DNA of 64,000 bases from assembly GCA_964007475.1 (NCBI GenBank), contig OZ023275.1:41659381-41723380 (forward strand), in the 5' to 3' direction. Origin of the DNA: Hybos culiciformis. Lineage: Eukaryota > Arthropoda > Insecta > Diptera > Hybotidae. Both the position numbers and the translations under genes were made by a program. The number at the start of each line of letters is the position of its first letter. The first letter of the stretch is position 1. This document shows positions 7,746 to 52,280 of the stretch, piece by piece. Below the pieces are notes generated by a model. The model saw only the letters and a list, made by a program, of their open reading frames with translations. It was not told where the DNA came from and ran no database searches.

Positions 7746-7997
7746 AGTTTGTGTTAATTTTTCAATTTATCCACTTGAATTAAGTGTTTGGGTTGTTTTA
7801 TTTACTCTCAGATCCTTAGTGCCAAAATTACTCCTAATTCACTAAAAGAGAATCGATTTTTTGGCCTTATTTGGGACGAAATATTGCTTAGAAATAAAAA
7901 TTGTAGCTCCAACCTAAGAATACTTTTTTGTTTTTAAATCCTAATGAAATCCCACTGACAAACCGCCAGGATAAAAATATTTTGATGCTGTCAAAAA

Positions 7998-8815
7998 GGG
8001 GGGTTGGACATTTGTCCGCGGGACATTTGTCCGCAATTTGTTTTTGTGTCGCAGACATAAAAATGACATTTGTCCGCGATTCGAAATGTCTTTTGTCCGC
8101 CGCGGACAAATGACATTTCAAAAATGTCATTTGTCCGCGATTAAAATTAATCGCGGACAAATGACATTTTGCAAAATGACATTTGTCCGCTAAAAATTTA
8201 AAAAATCAATCGCGGACAAATGACATTTTGCAAAATGACATTTGTCCGCTAAAAATTTAAAAAATCAATCGCGGACAAATGACATTTTGCAAAATGACAT
8301 TTGTCCGCTAAAAATTCGAAATACCAATCGCGGACAAATGACATTTTGCAAAATGACATTTGTCCGCTAAAAATTTGAGGCTAAAGTGCAGATGACGTGA
8401 ACCAATCAGAATCGGTACAACGAGAGAGAGGTGGGGGCGGCGGGCGGGCGGGTGGACTGGTGGTTGGTCAGTGGGATTTGCACATACAAAATGTATGAAG
8501 AATTTGGGGGGCCTCTACCCCTCTACCCTTTTCCAACCTTCAGACGATTCTGAGTGGTTCACGTAATCTGCAGTATCTCCAAAATTGAAAAATCAATCGC
8601 GGACAAATGACATTTTGCAAAATGACATTTGTCCGCTAAAAAAACTGAAAAATCAATCGCGGACAAATGACATTTTTCAAAATGACATTTGTCCGCTAAA
8701 AATTAAAAATTTCAATCGCGGACAAATGACATTTTGCAAAATGACATTTGTCCGCGAAGTTTTCCATACAAATTTCATCGCGGACAAATGTCCCGCGGAC
8801 AAATGTCACGGCGCC
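7998..8815. mobile_element. Foldback-type element A, palindromic-unit arms, 8- or 9-bp target duplication
   Basis: The element is flanked by GTCAAAAA at 7990-7997 and 8816-8823 (GTCAAAAAG, 9 bp, if one G of the left G-run belongs to the duplication). Its ends read inward GG-(GGGTT)-GGACATTTGTCCGC and GG-(CGCCG)-TGACATTTGTCCGC. The arms are tandem arrays of a 38-bp palindrome bounded by GCGG and CCGC. On the left, units start at 8153, 8212, 8271 and 8330, an exact 59-bp period, plus a variant at 8101. On the right there are three units between 8599 and 8755. The centre has a further inverted pair (about 8388-8416 and 8539-8571, GTGAACCA...CAGAATCG). It also holds a half copy of the GC-rich cassette, with ggttggtcagtgggatttgc at 8462-8481. 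I see no transposase, so it is non-autonomous. It sits between RpLP2 and dynamin, ending 330 bp before the dynamin ATG. Confidence 0.85.
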
Positions 8816-9145
8816 GTCAAAAAGATACAAATTTTCAGAAAATTTACTATTTAAAATCGCTACACTTAAATCAAGTGTAGTGATTTTTGATTGTAAAATA
8901 CTGTGGGCAATAATGAACTAATTCCCTTAATTTTGCTTAACAAACTTTAGGGATTTTTTTGGTATATTTTAAGAATTTATTAAAAAAAATAAAATTTGGC
9001 AAAGTTCTCTTCAGTAGAATTTTATTTCATTAGAAAAAGGTAGTGAAAAAATTGGTGGATAAAAAAAATTCGCAAAAAAATAAAAAATAAATATATATAT
9101 AATTAAAATAATTATTTCTTTAATTTGGTGCAAATTATTTACAAT

Positions 9146-11443
9146 ATGGATACATTAATTCCAATTGTTAATAAATTGCAAGATGCATTCACGCAGTTGG
9201 GCGTTCATATGCAAATCGATTTACCACAAATTGCCGTAGTGGGCGGACAATCTGCTGGCAAATCATCAGTATTAGAAAATTTTGTGGGAAAGTAAGTTAA
9301 ATATTAAGGAATAAAACCAATTTTATTAAAAAAATGAATAAAGAAAATTAATTGGAAAAAAAAAATTGAAAAAATCGAAACCTGAAAAATCAATTGAAAA
9401 AATGGATTCTTTTTCCTGTCAAATAGAAAAAAAATTAACTAAGAGAAAAATGAGAGAACCAAGAAAGAGAATTTTTTTTACAAACATTTGTTGACTTTTT
9501 TATTTTTTTTTATTAATCCAGCCATCCGTCGTCATGTCATAATAATATCTAAAAAAAAAAAAGTTGTTTTATTTATTTTTTTTAGAATTAGATTCTTTTT
9601 TCTTTTAATCTTATCAATAGTAATAATTCTTTAAATTTGATAAAAAAAAATTAAAAATATTTTCTTTATAGTAAATAAAAACAAAAGATAAATTAATATT
9701 TATGAAATTTTAAAATTATTAATAAATTTTATTTTCGACTTGACATGACATTCTTGTTATTATGTTAGGTATATATTTGGGTATATTTAATTTTTCATGT
9801 TAAAATAATTATATACTTATTTTAACTATTTTTATGTTTTAAACGCCATTAAGATGAAATTAGAAATTATTTTTTTTCTTTAAAATTCAGTAGGTAGGTA
9901 GTAGGTGTTCCTCCTTAGTTACCTCGTAAAATTTTTTCCATCCTCTTGGCGTATTGACTTTGTCAGTTTTTGGGCAGAATGAAAAAAAAATGCCTATCAA
10001 TTAAGAATTATGAATATGATATAGGTAGGTAGGTACCTAAATGTTATCTTCAGCCTTATTTTTCGTTTTAAGTAGATATTTTAAAATTTAGTTTAAAATT
10101 TAACTGATTCCGAAATAACAAGGGCTTCGATTTAATTACCAATTCTATAAAGTTGGTTCCAGTACCTGGACTAACCAGCCGTAGCTCATCACTGTGGCTA
10201 GGTACCTAGTAATAAATACATTATGTAATTACCTAGGTATACCTACCTACATTACATAATTAAAAGAATTTTCCTTAATGAATAATGTGTTAATATGGAT
10301 ATAAGTATAAAAAAGTTAAGATTTTCACTTAGAGCCAATAAGAATTATAATAATCAGAGATAGAAAAGAAAAGAAATATAATTTCAATGAGAGGGTAAAG
10401 AATTTTTTTTATTTTTTTTTTATTTTTCAATGTTGAGAGCTTCTCAATCGATTTTTATTCTTGTTATGATATTTTCTTTCTTTCAATTTTTTAATATTAA
10501 AAATTCAAGTGTTGTATTTTAGTGATTTAATGTTTTGGTATATTTTAAGATAGCAAAGAAAATAATGTTTTTTTTTGTATGTAAAATTTTAAAATTTAAT
10601 GTTTTTTCTTTTCTTTTTTTTTTTTGTTCTGCGAATAGAGCTAATTTAGATAAAAATTTTTAGAAATTTTAAAAATTTTAATTTATTGTTCTTTTTCCTT
10701 GTATTTTTTTAAATAAAAAAAGATAAAATAATTTCCCTCATAATTTATTTTCATTCAATTATTATAGTAAAATGTGGGTGTTTTTAAAACTTTTTTTTTT
10801 CTGTTAACAAAAAAAAAAAAAAAAAACCGAAAAAAAATATACGAAAATCAATTTTTCTGATTAGTGTACCTACAAGAGTTTTTCGAGTTTTTCGAGTTTT
10901 TTTTTTAAGGGGAAAAAAATCCTTTTTGAATGTTTTTTTTTTTTTTTCATTTTATATGTCAAAAATTACAACATTGTCCTAATTTTGATAATATTATGAA
11001 AGAAATATGTTTTTTTTTTTTTTTTGTTTTTGAAACGTAAATTAATATTTTAAGAGACTAATGAAATTTTACCGTCACTTACTATATAATAATTTTAGAT
11101 AAGAAAATAATTTTTTTTTTCTAGGTGTATGTAATTAAATCTTTATATATAATTAAAACAATTTTTTTTTTTCAAGAAATTTAATTTTTTTTTTAAATAT
11201 AATGTAAGCAATTCCATAACGATTTTTTTTTTTGCTAAAATATTTCACTTATGAAAAATTTCTATTTTGATTGTTTTTTTTTGTTAGCACAATAGACTTA
11301 AAAAAAAAAAACAAAAAAAAAAAAAAAAAAAAACTCGCGACCTTGAAAAACACTATTAGCTATCAGAAAAAATTGTATACCTACTATTTACTACTGTACT
11401 CAAAAAGAATGTAGATACATTTCTTTTGACATATGAAACTCTG

Positions 11444-11475
<32 letters not shown>

Positions 11476-14400
11476 AGAAATTATTTTCTGTATCAAAATT
11501 ATTTTAATTAATATAATATTGAAGTGAGACATGACGAAGAATTTATGGCATACCTACCAAATTGAATGAAAATATTAAATAGTTAGTTAGCTATAAATTT
11601 TTTTTTAAATGGCTAGGTTAGGATCCGAAATCCAGCAATATTCAACCATTCATAAAATTTCATTCATTTGTAATTTGAAAACGATAAGATTCATTCACAA
11701 TTTAATTATCGATATTAATAAAAAAAATTTCTTGATGTTGTAATTTATTATTATTTACATCATAGCTACTTACCCTTATTGTATCATTATTATTGCATAA
11801 CACCATAATAAAAAAAAATTAATAAATTGTATGTTAGGTACTACATGTATCCAAATAATTAAGAATTTTGAGATTGCAAATTAAAAAAAAAAAAAATTAT
11901 TTTTCTAAATTGCAATAAAAATTAATTTAAAGTTCCGCAAATTCCTCATTCAATGTATACTACCTATATATGCAAAAATCGTAACATAAGTGCATATTTA
12001 GATAGTTAGTTTTTTTTTGTATTTTCATTCACGTAATGTATTTATAAGTATATTATGTTTAATGTACATATATATACTATTGAAAAAAAAAGGCTTAGAA
12101 TCAGAATGATTCATAATCAGAATTCTTAATAATAATAATAAAAAAATTATAAACATCATTTTCGTTTATAACTATGTTATGTTTTTTTTTTTTTTGTTTA
12201 GCTACTAAAACAATGTTTTATTTTGGAAAACAAGTTAGAGTTATATACCTATATGAGTATGAAATAAAATAAAAAGAATTGTACATTATTGTTCAATTTA
12301 AGCGGAACAATTTAATTTACGATAATTCATAATAAATTTGTATTATAAGGACATATTAAATCGAGTATTAAATGAAACAATTAAATAATTCAGCTACTTA
12401 TAAAGTAATACCTAAAGAATGAATCTATTTTTTTTATTAAAAACAAATCAATTTTTTGTTTTATTGTTATGTGTAAAAATGAAATTGACATTCTAGTTTG
12501 AATTAAAAAAAAAAATTCTAGTTCTAATACTATAAAACCCTTTTTTCAACTGATTTCGATTTAATATTTTTAATTTTGGTCGACAGATTGAAACAAATTT
12601 ATGAAATATGTATAAATAACAACTGTGTATATTCCTCGTGAGTAATAAGTTCAAACTATATTTTTGCTAAATTGTTTCACAACAAATTGTTATGGATTTT
12701 CCTTGAAGTATCAGAAAAAAAGTATGATTTCACCAACATTTTTAATCTTTAAGTATTCAATTAATCGAATATCAAATTATTTTTTTATAAGCACGAAAAG
12801 ATGATATCTTAAACAATTATCAAAAAAATTATTATTTGTGTATATTTAATTTTTTTTGTTTTTTTGCAAGATTTAGAATTAGAACAACGCAAACACTTTC
12901 TAAATTGAAAAAATTTTCGTTCAATTTCATACAAAATATTCTGCTCATTAGATCGATTTTTTATGTTTAATTTTTAAACCTATTAGATTTATAAAAATGT
13001 ATTCTCTTTAACAGCCTGGATTGATGGAGCAGTTATTATTCAATATCTGTTGCATTTATTAATCAATAATTTTTTTTAATATACACACATATTCATATTT
13101 TGTGATAATTGGAATAACAATTTGTGATAAATAGAACCTAATTAAAAAATTTAAAATTACGTAGGTACTGAAGTCACATGCATTACAATATTGTAATGTT
13201 TACATTTCAATAAATAGTTCAAAGTTCGCCTGAAAAGTTTCTCAAAATTATTACATTTAGGTAGTAGTATAAGTATATCCACATAATAATAGGCGAAGTT
13301 AACATTGCTTTGTTCTGCGAAATCAAAAAAAAAAAGGGTTGAATGTCTTGACTAAAATTAATCAACAAAAAACAAAACCTTTTATTTAATGTACTCGAAT
13401 TATTATTTTTTTTTAACAATTTTAGTAATTATAATTATATTTGAAAAATTATTATCTGAAAGCTTTTGTCTCCTTTATTTCATCAATCAATGAGTCATTT
13501 CATTTTTCATTTTCTTCTAAAAGGTGATTTAAGTTTATTGAAAATTAATCCATAAAATGAATAAATAAATAAAGATTTTTAATAATTTCCGCCTTACTTA
13601 TTTTATGATTATCAAATATATATTAATACTTGTCCCAGCAAAATATTTTGTTGCAGCATAAACTTCTAAATTTTGTCAACGAGTGAGTTTTATTTTCTCA
13701 TTAAGTAATATTATTGAGGTACAGGATTATACGCTAAATTTTACAGTTTTACATTCAGAAAACTAGACGATTTTTATTTAATGAAAATTATTAATTTCTT
13801 TTAGAGATTTTCTACCTCGAGGATCCGGAATCGTGACTCGTCGTCCCTTAATATTACAACTGATAAATGGAATTACAGGTAATTAGTACTGATTTAAAAT
13901 AAAATAAATATTATTTTAATATTAATTAATTTTTTAGAATATGGCGAGTTTTTACATTGTAAGGGGAAAAAATTCTCAAATTTTGATGAGATTCGTCAAG
14001 AAATTGAAGCCGAAACAGATCGAGTTACTGGTAGTAACAAGGGTATTTCAAATATACCAATCAATTTGCGAGTTTATTCGCCACATGTATTAAATTTAAC
14101 ATTAATTGATTTACCTGGTCTGACAAAAGTTCCGATTGGCGATCAACCAATAGATATTGAATCACAAATAAAAAATATGATAAATCAGTTTATAAGGAAG
14201 GAAACATGCCTTATTTTAGCCGTTACTCCGGCTAATACTGATTTGGCGAATTCAGATGCATTGAAATTGGCTAAGGAAGTTGATCCTCAAGGAGTAAGAA
14301 CAATTGGTGTTATAACCAAATTAGATTTAATGGATGAAGGTACAGATGCAAGAGATATTTTGGAGAATAAGCTCTTGCCTTTACGTCGTGGCTACATTGG

Positions 14401-17400
14401 TGTTGTTAATCGCTCACAAAAGGATATTGAGGGAAGAAAAGATATTCATGCCGCTTTGGCAGCTGAGCGTAAATTTTTCCTGAGTCATCCATCATATCGT
14501 CACATTGCTGAACGTTTAGGCACACCATATTTACAACGGGTTTTAAATCAGCAATTAACAAATCACATTCGTGATACGTTACCAGCATTAAGGGATAAAC
14601 TACAAAAGCAGATGTTAACCTTGGAAAAAGATGTCCAACAATTTAAACATTTCAGACCTGATGATCCTAGTATCAAAACAAAAGCAATGTTGCAGTAAGT
14701 TTATTACATATATTTTTGAATTAATAATAAAATAATTATTGAAAAAAAAATTATTTTTTTCTTAAGGATGATTCAACAACTGCAATCTGATTTTGAACGC
14801 ACCATTGAAGGTTCTGGTTCTGCTTTAGTTAACACAAATGAATTATCTGGTGGTGCCAAAATCAATCGCATTTTTCATGAAAGGTACAAAATAAATTAGA
14901 ATATATATTTTTTTTTTTAAATTCTAAAGTGCTAAGATATTCATTGGGTTAAAGCGAAACGATAAAAATAAAGGAAGTCTTTCGATTTTTTTTTTTAAAT
15001 TCTAAAGTGCTAAGATATTTATTGGATTAAAGCGAAACGATAAAAATAAAGGAAGTCTTTCAATAATTACGATAAGCAACTAAAATTTTGTTCAAATTTT
15101 CATAAACGGAACATTTTAATTTATTAATTGACCGAAATTATACTTTTTTAGGTTACGTTTTGAAATCGTTAAAATGTCTTGTGATGAAAAAGAACTTCGC
15201 CGCGAAATTTCATTTGCTATTCGTAACATTCATGGTATTCGAGTTGGTCTTTTTACACCAGATATGGCTTTTGAAGCTATTGTGAAAAAACAAATTAATG
15301 GTCTGAAGGAGCCAGTCATCAAATGTGTTGATCTAGTCGTTTTAGAATTGTCTCACGTCGTTCGCTTATGTACTGACAAGGTAAATTATTTGAAAAAATA
15401 TTTTTATATATTTAGACATTGCATAAAAAAATGTGCCTTGGTTGTACTAATCAATAGGCAGACTTGCAATGTGATAGTTTTTTTTATTTGCTTTAAACTT
15501 TAATTTTATACAAAATTGTTTTTTTAAATTTCGTAATTATTTTTGATTGTTCTTTGTTTGCTTTCTTATTCATTTAATTTATTTAATTATTTTTCTGTAC
15601 GTTTTAATATTAAATTATTTTTTAAATAATTCGTTTATTAAACTTTTAATCTACTTTTACCTTCTGGATTACATATTAGAAAAAATTTTTATTCTTTAAA
15701 TTTAAACTTTTTGATTGATTTTAGATGTCACGCTACCCAAGGCTTCGAGAAGAAACTGAACGTATTATAACAACTCATATTAGACAAAGAGAACAGCATT
15801 GCAAGGAACAAATACTTTTATTAATTGATATGGAGCTTGCTTATATGAATACAAATCATGAGGATTTTATTGGATTTGCAAAGTAAGTTTATTAAAAAAA
15901 AAACAAAAAAAAAAAAAAAAAAAAATTTGAGTAATCAAATTTAATAATAATTTTTTTCTATTTTTATATAAAAAATCTTCAGTGCCGCGTGCCCGCTTCA
16001 AAGAAGGTTTTTATTCAGTTTTGTTATTAAATTAATTAAAAATATTTAAGCTAGAATTGACAAAACGTCCAAAAAAAAAAAAAAAACTATGGTTTTTTCA
16101 CTTGAGATTCAAAATTTGCAGTGCATTATAAAATTGTGTGTCATTCCAATCAAATCACCTTCCTAACTGTATAATAATATTAAATTGGATTCATTGCTTT
16201 TTAATTTTCTAAAACAAAAAAAAATTTGATATTTTTTATTTATTCTCCCCATTTTCACTAAGCTCTTAATTGGTAACCGTCAAAATTATATCTCAATAGG
16301 TATTTGAAATAAATTTTTCTGACGCTATGAAGTAGAATTTTGTGTTATAGCGGGCGGTTCAGGACAAATACTAGTACATCCAGTTTTCACTTATTTCAAT
16401 TTTAATACTGATTAAATCGAAAATTTTGCAGATGATTATTATATTTTATGTAGGTAATTATTTACTAAAAACCTAGTTATTTCAAGTTTAATTAATAGTA
16501 TTCACTTGCAACGGGCATATAATATTATTGAAGAAACTTCTTAACAAACATGTAAATCGCAGCACGCCGAAATAATATTTATTCAGTGCCATTTACATTA
16601 TTGTATGTACGTACATATGCATTAAAATGAAAAGAAGCTCTAAAAAAATTCAAATCCATAAAACGTTTGTAATTAAAAAATATCAAATTATCAAAATTAA
16701 CAGCAAGTTTTTGGTGTAAATTTTTTGGAATATTATTTTTAAAAATATTAGAACTTTTTTCAAGACATTGTTAATTTTTATTATAGGTAGCCTCCAAAAA
16801 TATTTTATATCGAAAAATTTTCTAAAGGTTTTGAAACGTTTTGTAATTAGATATTTAAGATGTTAGTGGTATAGTAACTCGGTCGTCCTTCGACACTCAC
16901 AAATTTTGGAAATTGCAGCGAAACAAAGAAGTTTCTATAAAAGTTTTTTATTAGTTTTTTAGATTATTTTATATTTATGTGTCAAGAAGAAAAATTAAGA
17001 AATCTATGTTTTATGTTAAGTTTTGAAAATAATGATTTATTTATAAAAATCCAAAAAATGTTGAAAGTCCGACAAAGCAAGGATCATCTACAACATTATT
17101 TCATAAAAAATTAGAATTAAGCATATTTGCTTTGGATTTTTGTTTTTATTGATAATACAAAAATCTTGAATTAATTAAATAGTAATAGTTTCTTATGACA
17201 CGTTATTTTTTAACCGAAATAATCGTCGGAAGTAACCCGAATTCTGATTTATAGAATTAATTAAATTATTTTCAATTAATATTTTAAAAATTGAATCACT
17301 TACGTTCAAGAATTCACCCAATAGTTCAAATTAAAAAAGAAATTCACTCAAAAATCTTACATTTGATTTCTCAATGTTAAAGGTTTCCCTACTCCCTATG

Positions 17401-20400
17401 TCCGAGGCGACCGATCTACTCGGCTTTTTTGTTTCATTTATTATTTTCAATTACAAAAAATTTACTCAATTCAATTTATTTCGGTTATGGCTAGTTTATT
17501 TGTACGTTTTTAATCTATATTTTAATGTATAATAATAATTTTTTTTTATGATTTATATTATGCATAAACATACTAGTTGGTATTAAAATTCAAATAAATG
17601 TATTGATGGCATTCTACCAAATGTCTAAAATCTTTGAACTAATTTGTAAAAATATATGCAAAATAGTGACACTTGACATCTCATAAAATTGAACACCTAC
17701 AAAATGTGGGCTTTTTTTTAATTGAAAAAAAACTGGCAAAATAATGTTTATTGCATTTGCTGTAACTGAACGAATCAAAAATGCAAAATGCTTTTCAGAA
17801 CTTATTTTGAAATACGAGGGACACATAAACAACGCATGTAAATAAAATATGCAGCTCCCTGTAAAAATATCCCAGAATTGAATGAAAATTAATTTTTAAA
17901 ATATTTTGCATACCTATTGAAATTTTAATATAAATGATAATTTTTTTATATAGAAATATTAAAAAAAAAGCTTTTCTTTTATTTTTCAGTATTTTTTTTT
18001 TTTGCTGTAAAACATAGCTATGTAAGCTCATAGATTGAATTTTGAAGAAAATTTTGTTTGTGTAAATAATACGACACGAGTTTAATCTTAGAATTAAAAT
18101 ATTTTGGTTCTTGAGTGCAAAAACAATCCTGTAAGTAAACTTTGCACTATTTTTGAAATTCCTTGCATAATTCGCCTATATGAGTATTATTTAACATAAT
18201 GTATTTCGCGAAATTATATTTTGTATATAATATAATATTATTATACTCTATGTAATGTTATATTTTATGTAATATTATATTATATGTAATAAATATTATA
18301 TTATATGTAATAAATATTATATTATATGTAATAACTATTATATTATGTGTTATTTTAAGCTGCACTACGCGTTTTCGTTCGGTTTTTTTTGTTTTATTTT
18401 ATTCCATTCCAATTATATGTCTTGTGACTGACACAATATTATGAATATAGATAATTTGAGATTGTTTTGAATATAATTCAGCCTTTTTCCTAAAAAATAA
18501 GAGATGAGCTTAATCCATTCAAAACAATTTTGCATAACGTAGTTTATTCATAAGTCAATTATAATGCAATGTTTTATTCATAATTTTCATTATAATATAT
18601 TGAACAGTAGATATAGATTAACTTCACATTTTAAGAAAAATAAAATAAAATTATTACATAAAGTCTTGTTAAAAATATGTAAAATTTCTAAATTAAAATT
18701 ATAATAAAACTTTTTAGATCAAATACTGTAAGAGGAAGAAAGTAAATAAAGAACCTCAACATAAAATATTCAATATAATTTTGAAAATTTAAGTTGTTCG
18801 ATTATATACTATGTGTATGTGCATAACAAAATTTTAAAATTTTTTGTTTTATAATTCTAAATTTTCATCTAATGGTAAATTGACCAGTTTTTTTTTTCTG
18901 ATTTTTATTATCACGGTGATTTTATTTTTCTATCCAATCTATGAACTATACATAAAAAACTTTTTTATTCGATTTTAAAAATTAGAGATTTGGATAAAAA
19001 ATTAAAATTTTTCTTTTCAGTGCTCAAAGTAAATCAGAAAATGCTGCAAAAACTGGAACGCGTGCTCTTGGAAATCAAGTGATTCGAAAGGGCCATATGT
19101 GCATTCAAAATTTGGGAATCATGAAAGGTAATATCAAGAAAATAATAATTTAACAAAAAATAAAATTAGTGTATGAAGTAAAAATGCTGAGCTCTTTTGG
19201 CTTATGATAAAAAAAAAACTAAATTTTCTTTGCATTATTTCGTCATACAAACTGTCATGTAATCAAAATATTTCCTTCACTTCACGAAATGGCTGTGAAT
19301 TGTTATTAAATTGTTTTATAAATTTAGAGTTACACGTTAAAATTGGTACATGTAAGTAGTCATATAATATCATTCATTCACTTTTCAATTTGTAGAAAAT
19401 TTACATACCTACATAAGCAAAAACAAAAAATAAATATTTTCAAAGGTGTGCTGTAATATAAATTTCGTGATTTACTACGTATTGAATAACAAGTCTATAA
19501 ACTATTCTTTTCTACACATACTTTATACATCAGTATAAATTAAAAAATATTGTCTTATGTACTTTGCTATCAAAAAGTGGAATCCAAAAGTTTAGTTTAA
19601 TGATTAGGCTATGTATATTTTATTAGCAACTTCGTTAAATGTTAGGGTTGAATAATAATTGTAAAAATTTCATTAAAACATTTTTCCAGTTATGGGAATT
19701 GTCAATGAGATGATTTAAGTGTTTTTAGCCCGTTTTCCATTAAAAACGAAAAACGGACTTTATGCTTTCACTCTCGGTCTGTACATCGGTCTATTTTGAA
19801 AAATGTACAAATTTATTTAACAACTCTGGCATAAGTTTGCAACAAAAAAAACCATTTACAATGTTTGTTTACATCAATTAAATATCAAATCTGACATTAA
19901 CACAATATCAGTAAAAGATCCTAATGATAATTATAATACATAACAAAAGATTAAATAAACAAATCAATCCGAATACGCGGCAGACAATCTTGATCTGATT
20001 ACCATAAAAAATGGGAAAATGGAACATTGTGGGTGGAGCAAAAATTTAAGTAAGATCTTGCCTAGGAAATAAAGACTAGGAAGATTGTTAAGATTTAGAA
20101 GACAATCAGCCGCAGATGAAAAATTAAAACTTTTTTTCTGTAGACTTTAAATTTAAATTTTCTGATATGTGTCTTGTAGTTTGGGGTTCAAACTAGACAA
20201 CAATATTCGATATTAAATTGTATTCAGCACTAACAGGTGGATAGTTTGCTAAATCATGCTTAAATTGATCTATTTACTTTCTCTCTTTTTTTATTTATAA
20301 TCTTTGTGCATAATTTACATTGAATTTTGAACTTGGTTTCATTATTTATTAATTCCAAATTTTTACTTTCTTCTTCTTAAGCATAATTTCAGAAATACTT

Positions 20401-23400
20401 TCTACTGGTTGGCTATTCAAAATGTATTTATATAAAAAACGAATAACATTATTGAGTTGAAGTCAAATCAAGAATTTGACAACTATAAAAAATGCATATT
20501 AATTAAACTACCAAAATTTGCATAAACTAAAAAAAAATCAAATACATTTTTCGTTGTGTAACATTTTCTTTTTAATTTTTTTTTGTTTGTAGCATTATTG
20601 ATGAGTTTTTTGAGCCCAATTATTGGTTTGTATTGTTTAATTAAATTTTAATTTGAAATTTGTGTTAATATTTGCGAAAATAAAACAATGCTTTTAATTG
20701 GTTAACAAATGAATAAATAAATATTATTGAAATTTTAAGGTATGGGAAATGCACAATTTCTACACTATAAAGTATTTTTGTCATTAAATTATACCAAAAT
20801 GGCGTTGGAAAGAAATATAAATGCTTGTTGTTTGTTTAAATTTATGTTGTTAATTTTTTAACCCTTCGATAAAGTTTTAAGTGATAACAAAATGCACATT
20901 TCTAGCATGATTTATGTAATTATTTTAAAATATGTTATGAATTATGATTAAGTATCGATAAAATCTAATCTGATGTTCCTTCGCAATTTACTATTTTAAA
21001 ACCAGTAAGGTCAATTATTAAATACTTCGAAAGAGTCTTTTTTAATTTTGTATCTAGGGTTTAGAAAATTTGAAAAAAAATTGGAAAAATAATTTAAAAA
21101 CTTTGGTGTTTCTTTTTTCCAATATTACAACCTTTTATTCGGGAAAAATATTTTTTTATTAATTTGTTCGTTTTGTTTATTATGTTCGTTTATTTATTTA
21201 TTTACTTTAATTTTTTATTTTTATTGCAACTGCTTTTTTTTTTTAATTTTTTGATTACATTTTTGATTTGATTGAATATTATTGTATACCTACGAGTTCT
21301 AAACCAAAAGGTTAATCTGACGTAGATATACAATAAGTATGTTAATATATATTTTATGTTATGTTATGAATCTTTCTAGTCTGATGTTTAATTGTACAAT
21401 ACTTTTTTTGATATTTTTAAGAAATTTAATTTAATGTTTGGAAATGAATATTAAATTTTAATAAACGTAAACAAAGAGGCTTGATTATACAGAAACGGAT
21501 CTAAATAACACAACTTTACTTCATGTTTATGTTTTTTTTTATTTTAGTATTAAGTTTATATGCAAAATATTGGCAAATTAAAACCATATGCTGACATAGA
21601 TTTACTTTTTGGAATAATTTTGTTTTTACATGACAGTTTATGGTATGGTATTATTAAAAAACTCATTATGATCTTTAACAGTGGACATTTTAGTTCTAAA
21701 TAAAGAGTTTAATATTTCATTTTATTACAGGTGGATCCCGCCCATATTGGTTTGTTCTTACATCTGAGAGCATTTCCTGGTTTAAAGACGAAGATGAAAA
21801 AGAGAAGAAATTTATGCTACCATTGGATGGTCTCAAACTTAGGGACATTGAACAAGGTTTTATGTCACGTCGTCATACATTTGCACTTTTTAGTCCTGAC
21901 GGACGAAATGTCTATAAAGTAAGTAGTTATTGCATATACCACATAAGTTTTAACAATTGGTTTAAAGTTAATAAATTTGATTAACAGTTTATTACCATTT
22001 TTTTATATTTTAAGTAGTACATATTATTTTCAATTTTATTTATCTTTTTCATTATTATATTTTTTAGGACTATAAACAATTGGAATTATCATGTGAAAAT
22101 GTTGATGAAGTTGACTCATGGAAAGCATCCTTTTTACGTGCAGGAGTTTATCCAGAAAAAGATAATACACAGGAAAATGGAGAAGACGGGGTATATATAT
22201 TTTTTTTAAGTTTATCAAAATTATTAAAATTATCTAAAAGAAAGCTATACTGATTAATGTCTGGGACAAACATTACTTGAAGAACTACATCATGTATTTA
22301 ATTATTTATTTTTATTTAGAAACTAAATTATATTTATTTATTGATGCGATATGAATCATTTTAAGATAAATCCATAGTAAATTTATAAAGTCGCAAATCT
22401 TCTTACAAAAAAAACAACAAAAATTCAAATGCTATCCAATTAATAAAGCTAAATTTCATTTTGGCTCGGTGGACTTAAATATTAATTGATTGTGAAAATA
22501 TAATCGTACTGACAAATGAAAAAAATAATTTTATAATAAAGACAGTCAAAAATTAGTATATCTTATGAAATTAGGAAAGTTTAAAAAAATTCAACAAATA
22601 CATTTTCGATAAAAACCGTAAGTTTTTATTTGATCTGCATTAAGTGTGAAATAAATGATTCCAAAAATTTGCGTTTACATTATTTTAAAGTAAATGTTTC
22701 TTCCCAAATAAGTATAAGCATTAAACAATTTTATATGAATATTTGTTGTCATTATTAAAAATTGGGTTCTAAAACTATTTAGAAGTAAATGTCTATAAAT
22801 AATGTGATAAAATGTGATAAATATAACAAAATTATAATATAATTAAATTAAAGCAATATACAATAATTATATAAAATTAAATTAAGAATTTTCAAAATAA
22901 TAATTAGAAATAATTTTTTTAAAATAATTTTTCAATTCCTAATTTTCTCTTATAATATATAAGCAGGAAGGAAGTCAGGTTTGTTTCATGATTTTGAGAT
23001 TTTATATTTATTTGCATTTCAAATTAAATTACCAGCATTTAATAATTTTTCATTCTGTTGAAATTAAAAAAAAAAAATAATAGTTTTATTCAAATTTTAT
23101 ATGCTGAGTGATTAGTTCATTAACTATATATAATTTTAAATTTTGTTTGTTTTGTTCTCCATCTTATATAGTAATGTTAAATATATATATATTTTTTTTA
23201 TTAATTAAAGTTATTGTTAAAAATAAAAATCAAACAAACACTATACTATATTGAATTAGGCAATTTGTTATTAAGTTCATATTTTTGTTAGCGACAAGAA
23301 ATTAAACCTATTGCAAATGATAAACCTACACATCTGAAACTATTATAAAAAGAATATCCCAAATATGAAATAATGAATTAATTAGTAGAGTAAAAATTTT

Positions 23401-36347: not shown

Positions 36348-36419
36348 AATTAGGTTTAGAATAAAAAAAAATTGCCTCAAAATACAAATTGAAAAAATTG
36401 CTTAAAGTAAATAAACTGT

Positions 36420-39400
36420 TGAATAGATATTAAAAATACATAATAATTAATATTTTCTACCTTAATAATTTTAAATTTATATAATGATTTAAAATATATA
36501 TATATTTTTGTATATTTTTAATTTATTATTTTATTTTGTTATTTGTATAAAATAAAAAAAATATATCATTATTTATTTGAACAATTTTATTCGTTTAAAT
36601 TTGTTAGACTGTTAGAGAGTGTGTTTCAGATCTTGATGATGGAGATTAATGTTGGAATTCCTTAAAGATGCTATAACTAAAAATACTCGTCCTGATAATA
36701 AACATGTATTCCTTTGACAAAAAATTTTCTTTCTGGAAATTTTCAAAATGATTGGTATAAAAATATGTTCATGATTAACTACAGTTTCGTCAATTTTTCC
36801 ATTCTTGATTAATAGAAATCTTTAAAATAATATGAAAGGAAAACCTTCCTAAATAGTAACCAGGTACCAGGTAAGTAATAACGATATTTTTGAAATAAAT
36901 TTAAATAATAATAAATTTAAAATACAAGCGTCATAGTTTATGATATTTTATTTATTACACCATTTAGAAAAATTGTGAAAATTTATAACAGTAGAATTGT
37001 TTCTTACAGTTATCTGCTCGTACGTTTTACACAATAATTGACCAAACTTTTAAATGAATTCAAATTCGAACGCGAAATAAATTACTAAATACCCCTGGAT
37101 TTGTTCGGAAGGTACATTTAGTAAGCAAAGAGAATCTTGATTTCCAGAAAGTATTACGAGAACAAAAACCTACACTATGAACTATGATGTTACTTAAGAT
37201 AAATATGGCAAAAAAATCCAATGCAGGTATTAATTTAAAATTAAAATCGATCGTCACAGCTTGATTTTGGTTATTAATTTTATCTGCGGAAATAATAAAA
37301 CAAATTAATTATTTTTACCATTTTTATTAGTTGTAATTTTTATTCACTTTTAGACTTTTATTCGTTTTCACGTAAATTTTAAATATGTTTTTATTAATCC
37401 TCTATTAACGTTATTGGAGAAAGAATTTTTCCACTCCGCATTTTAAAGTAATTACCTATTGTTGAATAATGTTTTATTTAATGAAATTTAAATTATTACT
37501 TTTTTTTAATTCAATGTTTTCAATAAAATTTTTATTTAAGTATCTGTAAAAAAATAATCAATATTTACAGAAAAGAAAAAATTTTAGGTAGATTTAATTT
37601 TGGGATTTATTAGAAAATAAAGATTGAATTAGATTTAATAAATAAATAGATTAGATTTAATAATTGAAAAAAAATAAGGAAATTAATTTTTTATCTGTCT
37701 CCTTAATGTATAGATAATGTATTCAAAATGACGATAAATTTTTTTAGAACTTTTCTAATAATTGCAATTGTCAAATTTTTTCTTTTTCCGAAATATTGAC
37801 ATTTTTATGCAGTAAAGTAAAATAATTTTCAAAGTATACATATTTTTGTGGTGTATAACAATTCTTATTTAATTAGGACAAAATTTATTTAATATATTTT
37901 TGAAATAGATATTTTAAAAACTTTTTGGATACTCTTATATTTAAAAAAAAATAACTATAAATATAATACATGAATAATTGAATAAGTTTTTTTTATAGAA
38001 ATACTATATAATTATATTTTTACAAGAGATGCATTAAACTTTTCATTCGAAAATTTAATTATTTAAATAATGAAAAAAAAATTTAGACCATTAGAACAGA
38101 AAATATAATATGTATATTAATCAAATATCGTTTTGATTAAATAGTTTTCATTTTCAACATTTCCTTAACTAGGCTTAAGATTTTTATTTATTTAAAAATA
38201 TGTGCTTGATTGACATAAAAAATATGTAAAAATTCATGCACCAAATCTTTTCAGAAAGCAAAAGGAATTTTTCTTTTAGAACAAAATTTTAAACCTAAGA
38301 AAAAAATTGCTTAAAATTCCTTTAAACATTTTTTTATCGCTTTCCTTTGCTTCGCCAAGAGTTCTAGTTTTTTGTATTTGATTTGCAAAAAAAATAATTG
38401 CTATTTATCTTATTTTATCAAAATCTTACAAACGAAGGGAAAACTATTAAATGAAAATCTCAAGCCAAGTAGTAACTTACTAACATATGTTATATTTTAT
38501 AATTGACATTTAATACATCTCATTTTATCTTTTACTATTATATATTCAGTTAAATATCACATAAAAGTTATATTTGATTTTGCAAGTATTGTATATATTT
38601 GTTCTTGTAACAAGTTAGATTTATATTATAGTAAAATTTTTAAGAAAATTTTAAATGTTTTTTAAGTGTTAATTTTTTGACAAGCAAGATAATAGAAATG
38701 GGCAGTTAGTCAGTATAAACTTAATACATGATAAGTATGTTGTAATTATGATATTGATTCAATTCAAAATTGTACATGTTATTCATACATAATATTGAAA
38801 ATTTTGAGACTTGAATGAATGTAAATAAATGTAAAAGAACACTTAATATATAAAAAGTATTTTTTGTTATTTGTTGAACCCACTTCTATTATTTCTTCTT
38901 AACGTCATCCACAAATTACGAAATTTGTTTTAAAATTTAATGTAATTTTTGGACAAAGTAAAATTACGTTCTATTAAATTCAGTGAAACTCCTGGGCGTT
39001 ATTATGAATAAAAATCAATCGTAAAAATCTTACGAAAATCCTATTATACCTCTTAATTCAAATAAAGCTGGGAATGCATTCATTGAATTTTATAAAAACA
39101 AGAATTCAAAAATGGGATCTTTATAATATTTTTACGATCGATAATGATCGTTAATTGTACATGAATCGAGACATTTGGTAAGTTTCACTTAAAAGAGTTG
39201 TTTTATTTTGGTTCTATGTATTAATATCATCAAAAAACTAATTGTATTTGTCCTAAAGACACAATGAACACTCCTTCTTTTGAAAAAAAAGCAAAGCGAC
39301 CAAGTAATTTTTTTTACAATACGAAATGATTGCTTTTTTCTAAAACGTCCGTTTGCTTTTGCTAAACTGAAAGTTTGAAGCTATACCTTATTAAATTTTA

Positions 39401-40587
39401 AAAAAATTGGAATGTTGTTTATTAACATTGCTACGAATTATTTTAAGTAACTAGTCGCACTATTAGCGTTTATTAAAAATTAATACAAGTAAAATCTGTG
39501 TTAGTTATTTTATCAAGAACGTTTATCAAACTGATCCCGAACCAATTTAAACAAATTTAACCATAAAAATAACCATATTTTATTCTAATATTAATTTCAA
39601 CAAGGTATTAATAAAAAACTAAATAATAATAACTTAAAAGTAATCTCAAATGCATTATTGTCGTTTATTACAGTTATGCAGATATTTTAATTACTCAATT
39701 AAAAAAAAAATAATAAAATTAAAAAATCTTTTAATACTAAAAAAAATTAACAACTTGTTTTCTGAGAGAAAGTTATGACAAGTTAGTTATCATAATCAAA
39801 CGATAATAAATTTATTTAACTTGAACTTCATGAATAATGAATCGCATTTAAAATTACCTTAGATTAAAATGTTTTTCACTTTAAAAACAAACAATATGTG
39901 TATAGATATAGAAATAATCCGGCCTTGGAAATATTGATTTCGAAATTAAATTAATCAAAATAATTCGTATTGCATAAAAAGCCACGTTACAAATTACAAT
40001 TAGAACTTAATTTATATTTCACAATTTTTGGGATATACATGAAAGATATTACATAATTTATTTTTTATTATATACCCATTTGTGATTTTAAATACTTTTC
40101 GTTTTATATAAGTGATGAAAAACTTCTAAATATATATCTTATATCATAAATTAAGAATAATAACATTTATACTGTTGAACAATTTATTGTGCCAACTTTA
40201 CATATAAAAAAATAAAGCTCGCATTTAGCTTAATTTTTTATTAAGGTACTCAACTCAAAAAAATAATTATGTATAACAAAATTAATATTCATTTACTATT
40301 GCCTTGTGTAAACATATTACATTCAATTAATTGCATGATAAGCGTAATTATTTTTTTTTGTTGAGAAAATAAAAAATTGAATTCGATCCGAGCTTAACTT
40401 TTTTATAAGGCACACAAATTTGTTCTACAGTAGAAATATTATATAGTTAATTTATGCTTATATATAAAAGCAATAATGTTATATAATATAATTTTTGAAA
40501 CAATTTTTAATAACTGATTAATAATTAATACTTATTATACGAAAAAACTGTAGTTCTTAAAATAAAAGAAAAACGTATAACTCAAAT
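36420..40587. other. Intergenic spacer between convergent dynamin and Rop genes
   Basis: It contains the 3' flank of the distal dynamin exon and, at its right end, the Rop 3'UTR. Open frames here are short and AT-driven, without recognisable motifs. I see no RNA gene or element. Confidence 0.5.
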
Positions 40588-47163
<6,576 letters not shown>

Positions 47164-48010
47164 ATTTAATACTTTTTTGTATTATTTTAACACTCTTTTT
47201 AAAATTTTTATAATTTTTGAATTCCTTTCAATCCAATTGATGGTAATTTAAGTTTAATAAAAATTTTCTTTTTTGACTTTTCTTGTTTTCTATCTTTTTT
47301 ACACTCAAAATGTCACTTTTATAGTAGAGAAGTGTGCGCCGCAATTCAAAAGAAGTCATGAATTCTAGCGGATATTTTTTATTAAATTTGTAGTTGATGT
47401 CGATCTTTGGTTATGTTTTTTTCGGATTTCCAGACTTTAACTGTTGTTTTTGATTTTATTGTTTCCAATATATAAAAATATGTATAAAAACATAACTAGA
47501 TAAAATCGGCTACATGACATAACCGCGAATGTCATAACCGCGAAACTTTTTTGTCATAACCGCGAAATAAAAAATAAAAGTGTCATAACCGCGAAAAATG
47601 TCTTATATTTTTTTTTGTCATAACCGCGAAAAAATATGGCAAAAAATTGAAAAAATTTCGTTTCGCGGTTATAACAAAAATTTTTGTTATAACCGCGAAA
47701 CACAAAATTTCGATTTTTATCATTTCGCGGTTATAACAAAAATTTTTGTTATAACCGCGAAATGACAAAAATCGAATTTTTGTGTTTCCCGGTTATAACA
47801 AAAATTTTTGTTATAACCGCGAAACACAAAAAATCAATTTTTATCATTTCGCGGTTATAACAAAAATTTTTGTTATAACCGCGAAACACAAAAACTCGAT
47901 CATTTTGAAAAATTAAATAAGACCTCGATAAAAAAATGTTGTGTGGTAAGCACACAGGAGGGGGGGGCAGCAGGGCGGCGGGCGGACGGTTGGTCAGTGG
48001 GATTTGCGGC

Positions 48011-48107
48011 TGGCTCTTCCCCTTCCATTATCATATTCACCTTGAGTTAAAACTCCAACAAGAGTTGATTTGCCAGCATCTGCACCACCTAAAACCGCAA
48101 CTCTGGC
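48011..48107 (-). pseudogene. Captured GTPBP1/GTPBP2-type P-loop fragment, copy 1
   Basis: Read on the minus strand, this 97-bp segment encodes [20 protein letters not shown] then [12 protein letters not shown]. It contains the Walker A motif GGADAGKS and the TQGE.DNGRGRA stretch typical of GTPBP2-like GTPases, where it lies near the start of the G domain. There is no start codon and the GTPase is otherwise missing, so it is a captured fragment. It is flanked on both sides, in opposite orientation, by the cassette end gggatttgcggc. On the minus strand it is preceded by GCCAG/AG, which resembles a 3' splice site. Confidence 0.85.
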
Positions 48108-48270
48108 GCCGCAAATCCCACTGACCAACCGCCCGCCCGCCTCCCTGCTGCCCCCCCCCTTCCGTGTGCTTACCAGACCTCGAAAAAAAAATGTTGTGGG
48201 ATAAGCACACGGAGGGGGGGCAGCAGGGCGGCGGGCGGCGGGCGGGCGGTTGGTCAGTGGGATTTGCGGC

Positions 48271-48367
48271 TGGCTCTTCCCCTTCCATTATCATATTCAC
48301 CTTGAGTTAAAACTCCAACAAGAGTTGATTTGCCAGCATCTGCGCCACCTAAAACCGCAACTCTGGC
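48271..48367 (-). pseudogene. Captured GTPBP1/GTPBP2-type P-loop fragment, copy 2
   Basis: Same fragment and orientation as the copy 260 bp to its left. I saw one base difference (gcaccacct versus gcgccacct, a silent change in the Gly-Ala-Asp region). Both copies keep an open frame. Near-identity shows a recent tandem duplication of the whole cassette/fragment/cassette block inside element B. Confidence 0.85.
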
Positions 48368-48828
48368 GCCGCAAATCCCACTGACCAACCGCCCGCCCGC
48401 CTCCCTGCTGCCCCCCCTCCGTGTGCTTACCTCACAACATTTTTTTATCCAGGTCTTATTACATTTTTCAAAATGATCGAGTTTTTGTGTTTCGCGGTTA
48501 TAACAAAAATTTTTGTTATAACCGCGAAATGACAAAAATCGAATTTTTGTGTTTCGCGGTTATAACAAAAATTTTTGTTATAACCGCGAAACACAAAAAT
48601 TCGATTTTTATCATTTCGCGGTTATAACAAAAATTTTTGTTATAACCGCGAAAAACTTAACATTTTTTTTGTCATAACCGCGAATTCGCGGTTATGACAA
48701 ACATAAAATTAGTTTCGCGGTTATAACAAAAATTTTTGTTATAACCGCGAAACTCATACAAATTCTAGTTTCGCGGTTATGACAAAAATTTTTCGCGGTT
48801 ATGACATTCGCGGTTATGTCAGTTCACC

Positions 48829-50519
48829 ATAAAATCCATGTTATGTTTTAATAGGGGTTTGTTTTTATATAAAAGCATAAAAAGTCAGAGAAGCAATTAA
48901 CATTCGCATAAATAATTTTAGCGACATCTACTGTATTGTTTTATAAACAGTTTGGTGGCATACAAATTTATAATCGTTTGGAAAATAGCCTAAATTTGGA
49001 GGGGGAGTAGAGGTGGTGCCAAAACCCGCAAATCCGAAAGCTTTTTTCTCGGAAATGCCCCGTTTCGGAGATATGGCCCCTCAAAAAGTTTCACACATTT
49101 TTGTATGGCAAAATTTTTTCTTATCCGATTTCAAACAGAATATCATAAAGCATTTTAGTATGTTCAAACCACAACCATAGAAATATCTTTATTCCGCGAT
49201 CGTGGATCAGGATCACATTAGGAAATAAAAAATTTTTTTTTTTTAATTAGAACTTTATTTATTTAAGCAATTTTATTTTTATATTTTGTGAACTAAATTT
49301 ATTTATTTTCATTACACTACAATAATATTTTCTTTTAAATATTTTATCATAGATAATTTTTTAATATTATAAATTTTTATTTTTGTCAAAAATCTTTTCT
49401 TTCAATTTATCATAATTTAGCGAAATTACTCAAACCTATAAAATTTTTTCATTATCGTAATACAATACAATACATTAAAATATAAGTCATGAATTCAATG
49501 TATGAAAATTTCTTAATTGATAAAAAAAAGTTGGAAAATTTATCACGAATTATTAAAATTTTAAGCAACATCTATGTAATTGGCAAAAATAAATTATTTT
49601 AATGATATAATTTTTTTTAAACTAATGAATTTTTTGATTTCTTTCGACGACAATTCTTAGATCAAGTTTATTTTATAGGTTTAAGTATTTCGTTACTTTT
49701 ATGCGTTTCTTTATAATTCTTTTGTTCTGTGCACAAAGCCCTAGGTATTTATTTAAAATTGCATTTAGTATATTTTATAAGAATTGGATAAAAAACGAGT
49801 ATTAAAAACTTTTTGTTATTCTAACACAGATCTGACTTGTTGGTCATTACTAAGTAAATAATAAATGTTTCGTTTTAATACTACTAATGCATATATGTAT
49901 CAAATTTTCTTTGGGAGTTTAGAGAAATAAAATAATAACAGAACTTATATCAACGACAGGATGTTATAATCAAATTGGGAATGAAAAAATCTACTTTTAT
50001 TTATAAAGATTTTGTTAAAATGAGAGCATGATATACATCCAAGATCAAAGCTTTATTTGACTATAATCTAATTCATAATATAATTGAGAAATTACATTAA
50101 CGAAAAACTAAAATATATCACACATGTACATAAGTAAAAACAATGATTATTATAAATATAAATTTTAATGTAAACTTAAAATTAATACTTAGACCTACTT
50201 TTCTTTTTTTATAAAATTAAAAATTAATTTTATTCTATGAAAAAATAATATTTCGATGTGGATTAAAATTAAATTTTTAATGGAAGGTTCAATAAAAAAG
50301 TTTTTCTTTTGAATAAAAAAAGAATTTGTTTTCAATAGAAGCTGTTTTTTAAGAAATTGGTTTCGATTTGAACCTAATTCACTTTGCCCAAAATTCCTCG
50401 CATATTTTTTCTTTTGTTGACTGATTTTTTAAACATAGAATTTTATGTAACTGATATCTAATTAAACTTTAGTTTTAGTTTTTTTTTTTTTAATAAATGT
50501 TAATTTTAATCTCGGGCTA
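48829..50519. other. Spacer between elements B and C, with a TE-like patch
   Basis: At about 48995-49215 the sequence is less AT-rich and has phrases such as ctcggaaatgccccgtttcg and gagatatggcccctcaaaaa. These look like repeat-derived DNA rather than coding sequence. The remainder (49216-50519) is AT-rich with only short open frames and no feature I can support. Confidence 0.4.
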
Positions 50520-50527
50520 AAAATTAC

Positions 50528-51677
50528 GGGTGAGTGCCACTTGTACAATTTTTCAATTTGTATGGCGAAAAAAAATTGTACAACTGGTATTTTTCTCTGT
50601 ACAACTGGTAAAAAATAATCCAGTTGCACAATTGACCAGTTGTACAATTTACCAGTTGTACAGACAAATTTACCATTTGTACAATTCAGTTATCACCACT
50701 TGTACATTTTAGACCAGTTGTACAATCCTTTTTTTTTTTTTTTTTCAAATTAACCACTTGTACAATGTTTGACCAGATGTACAATATTTATTTTTATAAA
50801 ATTAAGCACTTGTACAATTTTTGACCAGTTGTACAATTTATCTTTTATCAAATTAACCACTTGTACAATTTTTAACCAGTTGTACAATCTCTATGGTAAA
50901 GTTATAACCGTGAGAAACTAAGCAAAATGTATGGAAAAGCTGTTGTGCATAATGGGTGACCGTGCCCTAGCGGGGGATGGAAATAAGGCCGCTAGGATTT
51001 TTTGTTGCGGTCTTATTTCATTTTGAAAAATGAAATTAGACCGCAAAAAAAGTCCTCGCGGCCTTATTTCATTTTGATAAATGAAATAAGACCGCGACCA
51101 AAATCATCGCTGCCTTATTTCATTTTGAAAAATGAAATAAGACCGCGACAAAAAAAAATTTTTTTTGGAGGGCTAATTCCATTTTTATAAATGAAATAAG
51201 GCCGCGTAGTAATCCGCCGCAAATCCCACTGACCAACCGCCCGCCCGCCGCCCTGCTGCCCCCTGCTCTGTGTGCTCACCTCACAAGATTTTTTATTGAG
51301 GTCTTATTTCATTTTGAAACATGAAATTAGACCTCCACGCGGCCTTATTTCACTGCGCCGCCCTAGCGCCTTTTCCAAAAATTGTACAAGTGGTAAATTA
51401 CAAAAAAAAAAAAGATTGTACAACTGTCAAAAATTGTACAAGTGGTTAATTCGAAAAAATCGAGATTGTACAACTGGTCTAAAATGTACAACTGGATTGT
51501 ACAACTGGCACTAGTCTGTACAAGTGGTCAATTGTACAAGTGGAATCTTTTTACCACTTGTACAATCCAAAAAACCAGATGTACAATTAAATTTTAAATT
51601 GTACAAGTGGTATTTTAGATTGTACAACTGGTACAAAAAAATTGTACAACTGGTAATTGTACAACTGACATGCATCC
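50528..51677. mobile_element. Foldback-type element C with CCASTTGTACAA repeat arms
   Basis: Target duplication AAAATTAC at 50520-50527 and 51678-51685. The ends read inward GG-(GTGAG)-TGCCACTTGTACAA and GG-(ATGCA)-TGTCAGTTGTACAA. The arms (about 50535-50891 and 51375-51670) are built from CCACTTGTACAAT and CCAGTTGTACAAT motifs. In the clearest stretch, units start near 50754, 50806 and 50857, a period of about 51-52 bp. Unlike A, B and D, the arm motif has no GCGG. The middle is interrupted by element D. There is no coding capacity. It lies about 600 bp downstream of the Unc-76 stop codon. Confidence 0.82.
50972..51359. mobile_element. Foldback-type element D nested inside element C
   Basis: The perfect 8-bp duplication GCCCTAGC (50964-50971 and 51360-51367) lies inside element C, so D inserted after C. 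The ends read inward GG-(GGGAT)-GGAAATAAGGCCGC and GG-(CGCAG)-TGAAATAAGGCCGC. The left arm has three 38-bp palindromes of type GCGGTCTTATTTCATTTTG, starting at 51007, 51058 and 51109 (51-bp period). The GC-rich cassette sits on the right in inverted orientation, with the invariant 20-mer at 51219-51238. It is followed by gctcacctcacaagattttt, nearly the same as the cassette flank in B. At 388 bp it is the most compact of the four. Confidence 0.85.
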
Positions 51678-52280
51678 AAAATTACAGTCATAATTCTTAA
51701 ATATGCTAAAATATATTTCATGAAGGTATCCTCATTGAAATTATTATGGTAAAACATTTTCCAAATTCTTTTAAATATTACTCATCAGAGCAGTTATAAA
51801 GTAAATACATCTTCTTGTAAAAGTAAATATTAAAAAATTTCCACAAAATAACACCTTAACGATCTTGTATTAAATATAAAATAAAAATATTTTTGTCAAT
51901 TAAACTGATGCTGTGAAAAGGCTATAAATTTATAAAAAAAAATTATTTTGAATACCAAAAAATTAACGTTATTGCTAGACATTTTATGACGCGATTTAAA
52001 GCTTTTTTTCTTCCTACGAGAAAACAAAAATTTAATTTAGTTTTTGTACTTTTTCTTGGAATAAAAAAACGATCATTAAGGTATCAAGAAAGCTTTACAC
52101 ACATACATATGATACTAAATATCGTTACAACATTAAAATATTTATAACTTTTTCCTTATATTAAAAATAATTTAATTAATTTTATATTTAAAATTGATTT
52201 AAAACAAAAAAAAAAATATCAAAATATTTCTCATCAATCATATTAAAAATTATTATATTTGTTTTTATCTTTTATATAAT

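Follow-up and report, generated by a model that had tools for sequence, protein, structure and literature searches.

Foldback elements of Hybos culiciformis as probable Phantom-like Mutator elements, with a composite element and a captured host exon

Four foldback elements, A, B, C and D, in a 64-kb window of the Hybos culiciformis genome (the whole stretch of 64,000 nucleotides analysed) are very probably non-autonomous Mutator (MULE) elements of Phantom-like type, which on sequence evidence would be moved in trans by transposases with matching repeats, D having spread within C as a composite, C[D], and B being a Pack-MULE. They resemble Muta1 and Tm1 and most likely represent new families of a known kind, the Phantom-like Mutator foldback elements. 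In each family, GG and five end-specific bases (N5) are followed by direct and palindromic copies of a family repeat of about 12–17 bp. A long terminal inverted repeat (TIR), subterminal repeats and unequal outer bases were found together, the composite TIR structure known from Tm1.

The window was scanned mechanically for elements of 200–3000 bp bounded by a target duplication of 8 or 9 bp, with GG-N5-(T/G)G at one end and C(A/C)-N5-CC at the other. Only A, B, C and D were recovered, in five hits since A scores at both 8 and 9 bp (Table 1), while 20 dinucleotide shuffles of the window gave one hit in total and none with similar arms. The order of duplication, GG, N5 and TG or GG, which the first-pass annotation had described for all four elements, was thus reproduced, every element having GG first and T/G-G at positions 8–9. 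Its description of foldback elements with a common end plan and unlike arm repeats also stood, the repeats being ACATTTGTCCGC(TAAAA) in A (read by eye), TGTCATAACCGCGAAA with the palindrome TTATAACAAAAATTTTTGTTATAA in B, CCASTTGTACAATTT in C and GAAATAAGRCCGC in D. The 9-bp register was the better one for A, the inner 20 bp of its ends being 95% alike versus 35% at 8 bp; the duplication of D was compatible with 8 bp (GCCCTAGC) or 9 bp (GCCCTAGCG), of which 8 bp gives ends of equal length. As D is nested in C, the four elements are not four independent local events. Host exons in the window included four frames with clathrin, dynamin, Sec1 and FEZ domains, plus an RPLP2 frame named by its homologues, of which the species-named ones among the best 120 of 941 were from flies (75–88% identity) and one moth (84%). 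Rfam and tRNA scans of the window gave 0 and 0 matches. All genome-wide counts given below cover the 342-Mb assembly.

Table 1. Elements, target duplications and exon-bearing modules located in the window
Feature	Position	Strand	Description	Basis
Element A	7999..8815	none	foldback, non-autonomous; ends GGGGGTTGG.. / GGCGCCGTG..	scan
A target duplication, left	7990..7998		GTCAAAAAG, 9 bp	scan and sequence
A target duplication, right	8816..8824			scan and sequence
Element B	47508..48828	none	foldback; ends GGCTACATG.. / GGTGAACTG..	scan
B target duplication, left	47500..47507		ATAAAATC	scan
B target duplication, right	48829..48836			scan
GC-rich inverted module of B	47958..48158	none	loop contains exon copy 1	
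Exon piece copy 1 (GTPBP-like)	48013..48104	-	91/92 identical to parent on another contig	
GC-rich inverted module of B	48220..48425	none	loop contains exon copy 2	
Exon piece copy 2 (GTPBP-like)	48273..48364	-	92/92 identical to parent	
Element C	50528..51677	none	foldback, split by D; ends GGGTGAGTG.. / GGATGCATG..	scan
C target duplication, left	50520..50527		AAAATTAC, 8 bp	scan
C target duplication, right	51678..51685			scan
Element D	50972..51359	none	nested in C; ends GGGGGATGG.. / GGCGCAGTG..	scan
D target duplication, left	50964..50971		GCCCTAGC	scan and copies L082, L083
D target duplication, right	51360..51367			scan and genome-wide flank count

A search of the genome for the MULE domain gave at least 145 matches, from which 62 loci (30 + 6 + 12 + 14) were fetched with roughly 1.2–1.9 kb read per side, and transposase frames were taken as single uninterrupted stretches, none being joined or mended. 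Many of these loci had arrays of 14–16 bp repeats beside the gene that were specific to the lineage (e.g. CACTGTATTTCATTT, AAAATCCCAAAAATT, CAATTCATCGTAAAG and CATTTGTTCGTAAAA), and at many others no repeat array was seen. Duplications, for which the repeats bordering directly on the arm ends were selected among those listed, were present at the arm boundary in 12 of 27 transposase loci examined (eight read as 9 bp, four as 8 bp) and were not found in the other 15. The transposase-bearing copies started with GG at 21 of 24 ends and with GA at three (L033, L034 and L058); the duplication of L050 matched at 10 bp and was read as 9 (at 10 bp, five of the 24 ends would not be GG), and that of L038 was low-complexity. 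T/G-G at positions 8–9 was not general among these copies, L020 having CC, L036 GG/GT and L056 GT/GC. FLYWCH and MULE domains occurred together in eight of ten scanned proteins, the remaining two having a MULE domain only and a MULE with a ZSWIM-like domain, respectively. The L050 transposase had 47 homologues in a protein search (25–54% identity), mostly unnamed and with no named Phantom among them. The 12 copies sharing the plan were picked by their MULE domain and show that MULEs have it, not that only MULEs do.

The main competitor, that A–D derive from another cut-and-paste superfamily and evolved foldback arms of their own, is improbable. Merlin, P/Galileo type and hAT elements also have duplications near 8 bp. 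In addition, the 62 of 145 MULE places read contained no transposase gene flanked by A, B, C or D arms, and so no MULE carrier with the same arms. Galileo is described as a foldback element of the P superfamily (PMC4079207). Against these points, 9 bp was the commoner length in the duplications of the B family (6/7), and elements of like end plan with 15-bp tandem arms encode MULE transposases. The search for an autonomous relative proposed in the first-pass annotation yielded MULE carriers of like plan and none with the arms of A–D among those places. In the presence of such carriers, its view that the superfamily was not decidable appears too cautious, although the link from plan to superfamily runs one way and none of the carriers read has the arms of A–D.

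Several MULE loci had features of their own. The same MULE frame was found twice, in L070 (region 1183-2785) and in L067, each time beside a C element, and the two loci look like copies of one locus; as candidates for an autonomous C they were rejected, as the end of C there points towards the MULE gene and the element stops before reaching it. Behind the MULE frame of L070 lies a second frame (2387-2785) with many paired cysteines, judged by eye to be RING-like and reminiscent of the Ghost clade. L028–L032 and L037 formed a transposase-bearing MULE family, six read copies of which were more than 99% identical over 2.4–3.2 kb, and this family probably spread recently, as judged by that identity. 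At G000:C3:8429637-8432036, two facing MULE matches lay in open frames of 963 and 1272 codons about 1.8 kb apart, unlike the transposases of about 470 codons read elsewhere in the genome.

The five bases behind GG had been described as freely variable, and in the families counted this was contradicted. Before the counts reported here, L002 and L004, which overlap L001 and L003, and L062, which overlaps L067, were removed. For B, ends were located via an inner motif with GG not required, in the window and in 16 other stretches of the genome that contain B palindromes. Among the 25 ends in these 17 stretches, 11 read GGCTACA, 12 GGTGAAC and two otherwise, so that 23 of 25 were of two kinds; seven of the nine two-ended copies paired one GGCTACA with one GGTGAAC, and L006 and L013 had a variant second end. 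The 40-base palindrome of B occurred at 1107 places in the genome. A 29-mer of the right end of A was found at 446 places genome-wide, and GG-N5 stood before a slightly shorter motif at 436 places, with N5 being CGCCG in 93 of 100 listed and one base off in the other seven. At the right end of D, N5 was CGCAG in 88 of 92 places genome-wide, and at the left end it varied by 1–2 bases over the three copies read: GGGAT in the window, AGGAT in L082 and GGTAT in L083. The outer bases of C recurred at both ends in L067 and at one end each in L070 and L083, differing by a single base (GGATGAG instead of GGGTGAG). In L084, the sole other A copy read, no second end was visible; at L084:13-30 an A left-end tip, GGGGGTTGGAC, directly adjoins a full A right end, as though a second A end had inserted into the first. 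On balance, N5 is, where counted, an end-specific and family-specific sequence with occasional single changes, not a free spacer. That N5 is unequal between the two ends of one element was confirmed, and it was also unequal between families; the inequality between ends arises because the outermost seven bases do not belong to the inverted part, which is also the arrangement described for Tm1.

To relate arms and transposases, 16 loci were chosen so that each arm-repeat family with a readable array was represented once; repeat units were hand-picked among TRF consensuses and read inward from the outer end. The transposase tree was internal to this genome, held no named Phantom, Muta or Tm1 sequences and had 2 of 13 inner branches well supported. 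Across the 16 lineages, dissimilarity of repeat units correlated with transposase distance at a Spearman coefficient of 0.34, a value as high being reached in 4 of 2002 permutations. The A unit was closest to that of L050 (score 43, versus a mean shuffled maximum of 20, with 0 of 200 shuffles equalling it), and L050 had 24 places with at most two changes from the 12-base motif of A. For the units of B, C and D, no match beyond shuffles was found among the fetched lineages, 18%, 9.5% and 14.5% of 200 shuffles, respectively, being as good. Since a like boundary plan is found on many lineages, each with its own repeat, and arms and transposases co-diverge modestly, the arms look like transposase sites particular to each lineage and not like exchangeable parts, as far as sequence comparison can suggest.

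The first-pass annotation had regarded the arms as exchangeable and suggested a single transposase. Under such a scheme, one enzyme would read GG-N5-TG ends or the fold alone and move all four families with interchangeable arms; GG and T/G-G at positions 8–9 are indeed common to the four elements, and a GC-rich core module is common to A, B and D. This scheme is less probable still than a different superfamily, as transposase lineages with readable arms each have an arm repeat of their own, arm similarity falls modestly with transposase distance, and N5 is conserved within the families counted, which is expected of end sequence and not of a spacer. The GC-rich module, GCAAATCCCACTGACCAACCGCCCGCC.., lay in the cores at 47958-48425, 8440-8479 and 51216-51268 of the window, and diverged forms of it were seen in two loci with other MULEs (L019:3103 and L046:2809).

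The history of D was examined with a query of C minus D, meant to reveal empty sites; of 351 candidate copies of C, 40 were scored, the window copy included. No empty site for D was found, the alignment breaking at the D insertion point in 40 of 40 scored copies, and in 32 of them a D right end lay 96 to 1422 bp beyond the break; L083 was a thirty-third C copy with a D right end, missed by the pattern. The comparison of C and D locations used 56 of the 92 D ends and was made by position irrespective of strand; the other ends are on contigs or stretches that have no scored C copy. The flank GCTAGGGC was exact at 54 of the 92 D right ends genome-wide, and 72 of the 92 had this flank or lay beside a scored C core, one C copy having two ends nearby. 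L082 and L083 contained shorter versions of D at the same insertion point with the same duplication. An independent local insertion of D was rejected, given the D right ends near 32 of 40 scored C copies and the flank shared by 54 of 92. From the breaks in all scored copies, the co-located D ends, the shared flank and the common duplication in L082 and L083, it is most likely that D entered an ancestral C once, after which the composite C[D] would have spread with the D body changing in length.

Duplications of the 8–10 bp length of Mutator elements were present at all four elements, with 9 (or 8) bp in A, 8 bp in B and C, and 8 or 9 bp in D. In the B family, seven of the nine two-ended copies had a duplication, in seven different sequences, which by eye was 9 bp long in six copies (L001, L003 and L012–L015) and 8 bp in the window copy. 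The earlier reading of exactly 8 bp in B, C and D and 8 or 9 bp in A therefore held for the window copies of B and C, whereas D can be read either way, the B family has mostly 9 bp, and A is better at 9. That the terminal repeats are products of chance or recombination and not insertion duplications, for which one could cite the B copies L006 and L007 (2 of 9 two-ended copies) and the C copy L067, where no duplication was found, and the lack of an empty D site among 40 scored C copies, is a very remote prospect, as seven B copies have seven distinct flanks, each with its own 8–9 bp repeat, and shuffled sequence fails to produce such elements.

The core of B encodes, twice on the minus strand, a GTP-binding loop, whose best solved-structure match was GTP-binding protein 1 (E 1.9e-9); Pfam assigned no family to either of the two frames. 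The captured peptide had four matches in the genome, namely two in B, one at C1:12706209-12706307 and a 73% paralogue on C2. The parent match lies in a 541-codon frame, and the 92-bp coding exon piece corresponds to C1:12706212-12706303. A host gene fragment is thus found between MULE-type arms and inside duplications, which is the arrangement of a Pack-MULE if, as we infer, B is itself a MULE. Each exon copy occupies the loop of a GC-rich inverted module, the loop being 97 bases long in both window copies and four bases long in the siblings L006 (TGGC) and L010. The module hairpin of L006 had an unbroken inner stem of 49 bp and a folding energy of -97 kcal/mol versus -34 for shuffles, none of 200 being as good. 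As the two exon copies are 260 bp apart, the exon-filled hairpin unit was probably doubled within B. The capture fits replication stalling at a hairpin followed by a template switch, which a single case cannot show; a model of this type was proposed for a Drosophila FB4 element (PMC8277862). More generally, it is a tentative suggestion, somewhat short of an even chance, that foldback MULEs take up host DNA at the tips of the hairpins in their own cores, in which case a stalled or cut hairpin and a subsequent switch to a distant gene would be the entry step.

Among the closest known systems is Muta1 of Aedes aegypti, as described in PMC5225508, in which duplications are 8 or 9 bp, the foldback type was assigned by its authors, non-autonomous derivatives are many and about 20% of derivatives carry host gene pieces. 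Muta/Phantom MULEs also have arms of subterminal tandem repeats like those of A–D (12 bp in Muta1 and 15 bp in Muta5), and the mixture of 8 and 9 bp in the B family is the same as that produced by Muta1 in yeast (PMC5225508). However, according to the same account, Muta1 has a 10-bp terminal palindrome, whereas the outer seven bases of A–D are unequal between ends; arm sequences also differ, and A–D are without a transposase gene. The Mutator/foldback element Tm1 of Meloidogyne, with a Phantom-like transposase and duplications of 8–10 bp, mostly 9, resembles A–D in its unequal 7-bp outer motifs A1 and A2, followed by GGA and variable numbers of a repeat of about 14 bp, although these motifs (CGGTTAA/CCTACCC) do not start with GG and its arm repeat and host are different (PMC3169594). 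FB4 and Tetris of Drosophila are other elements that share with A–D duplications of 8–10 bp, repetitive arms and, in the descriptions given, no known transposase of their own (PMC8277862, PMC4079207). Like B, FB4 has captured a host gene, Ssk (PMC8277862), but the piece captured by B measures 92 bp and lies at the loop of a hairpin. Spectre and Ghost are arthropod MULEs, the former with 8-bp duplications; they are unlike A–D in that Spectre has perfect TIRs of 74 bp and Ghost is described as having none detected (PMC6446971). In animals, host-gene captures have been published for Muta1 (PMC5225508) and FB4 (PMC8277862), and a survey of 100 animal reference genomes is described as reporting no Pack-MULE (PMC8277862).

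If A–D are Phantom-like MULEs, the FLYWCH domain of each lineage would bind the arm repeat of that lineage at many points, the MULE catalytic domain would cut at the outer ends and join with a stagger of 8–9 bp, and each of the four elements would be mobilised in trans by the transposase whose repeat it carries. An apparently new boundary rule would thereby become a testable case of a known one, in which several Phantom-like lineages with their own arm repeats of about 15 bp have numerous dependent foldback copies. Three points keep their interest: a single genome holds arm repeats of many lineages, C and D form a nested composite, C[D], and a host exon was freshly captured. With a near-identical exon placed at a hairpin loop and a short-looped sibling, B offers a fresh animal case on how MULEs acquire gene pieces, and capture at the hairpin tip, if true, would make a stalled or cut hairpin with template switching the first step of gene capture.
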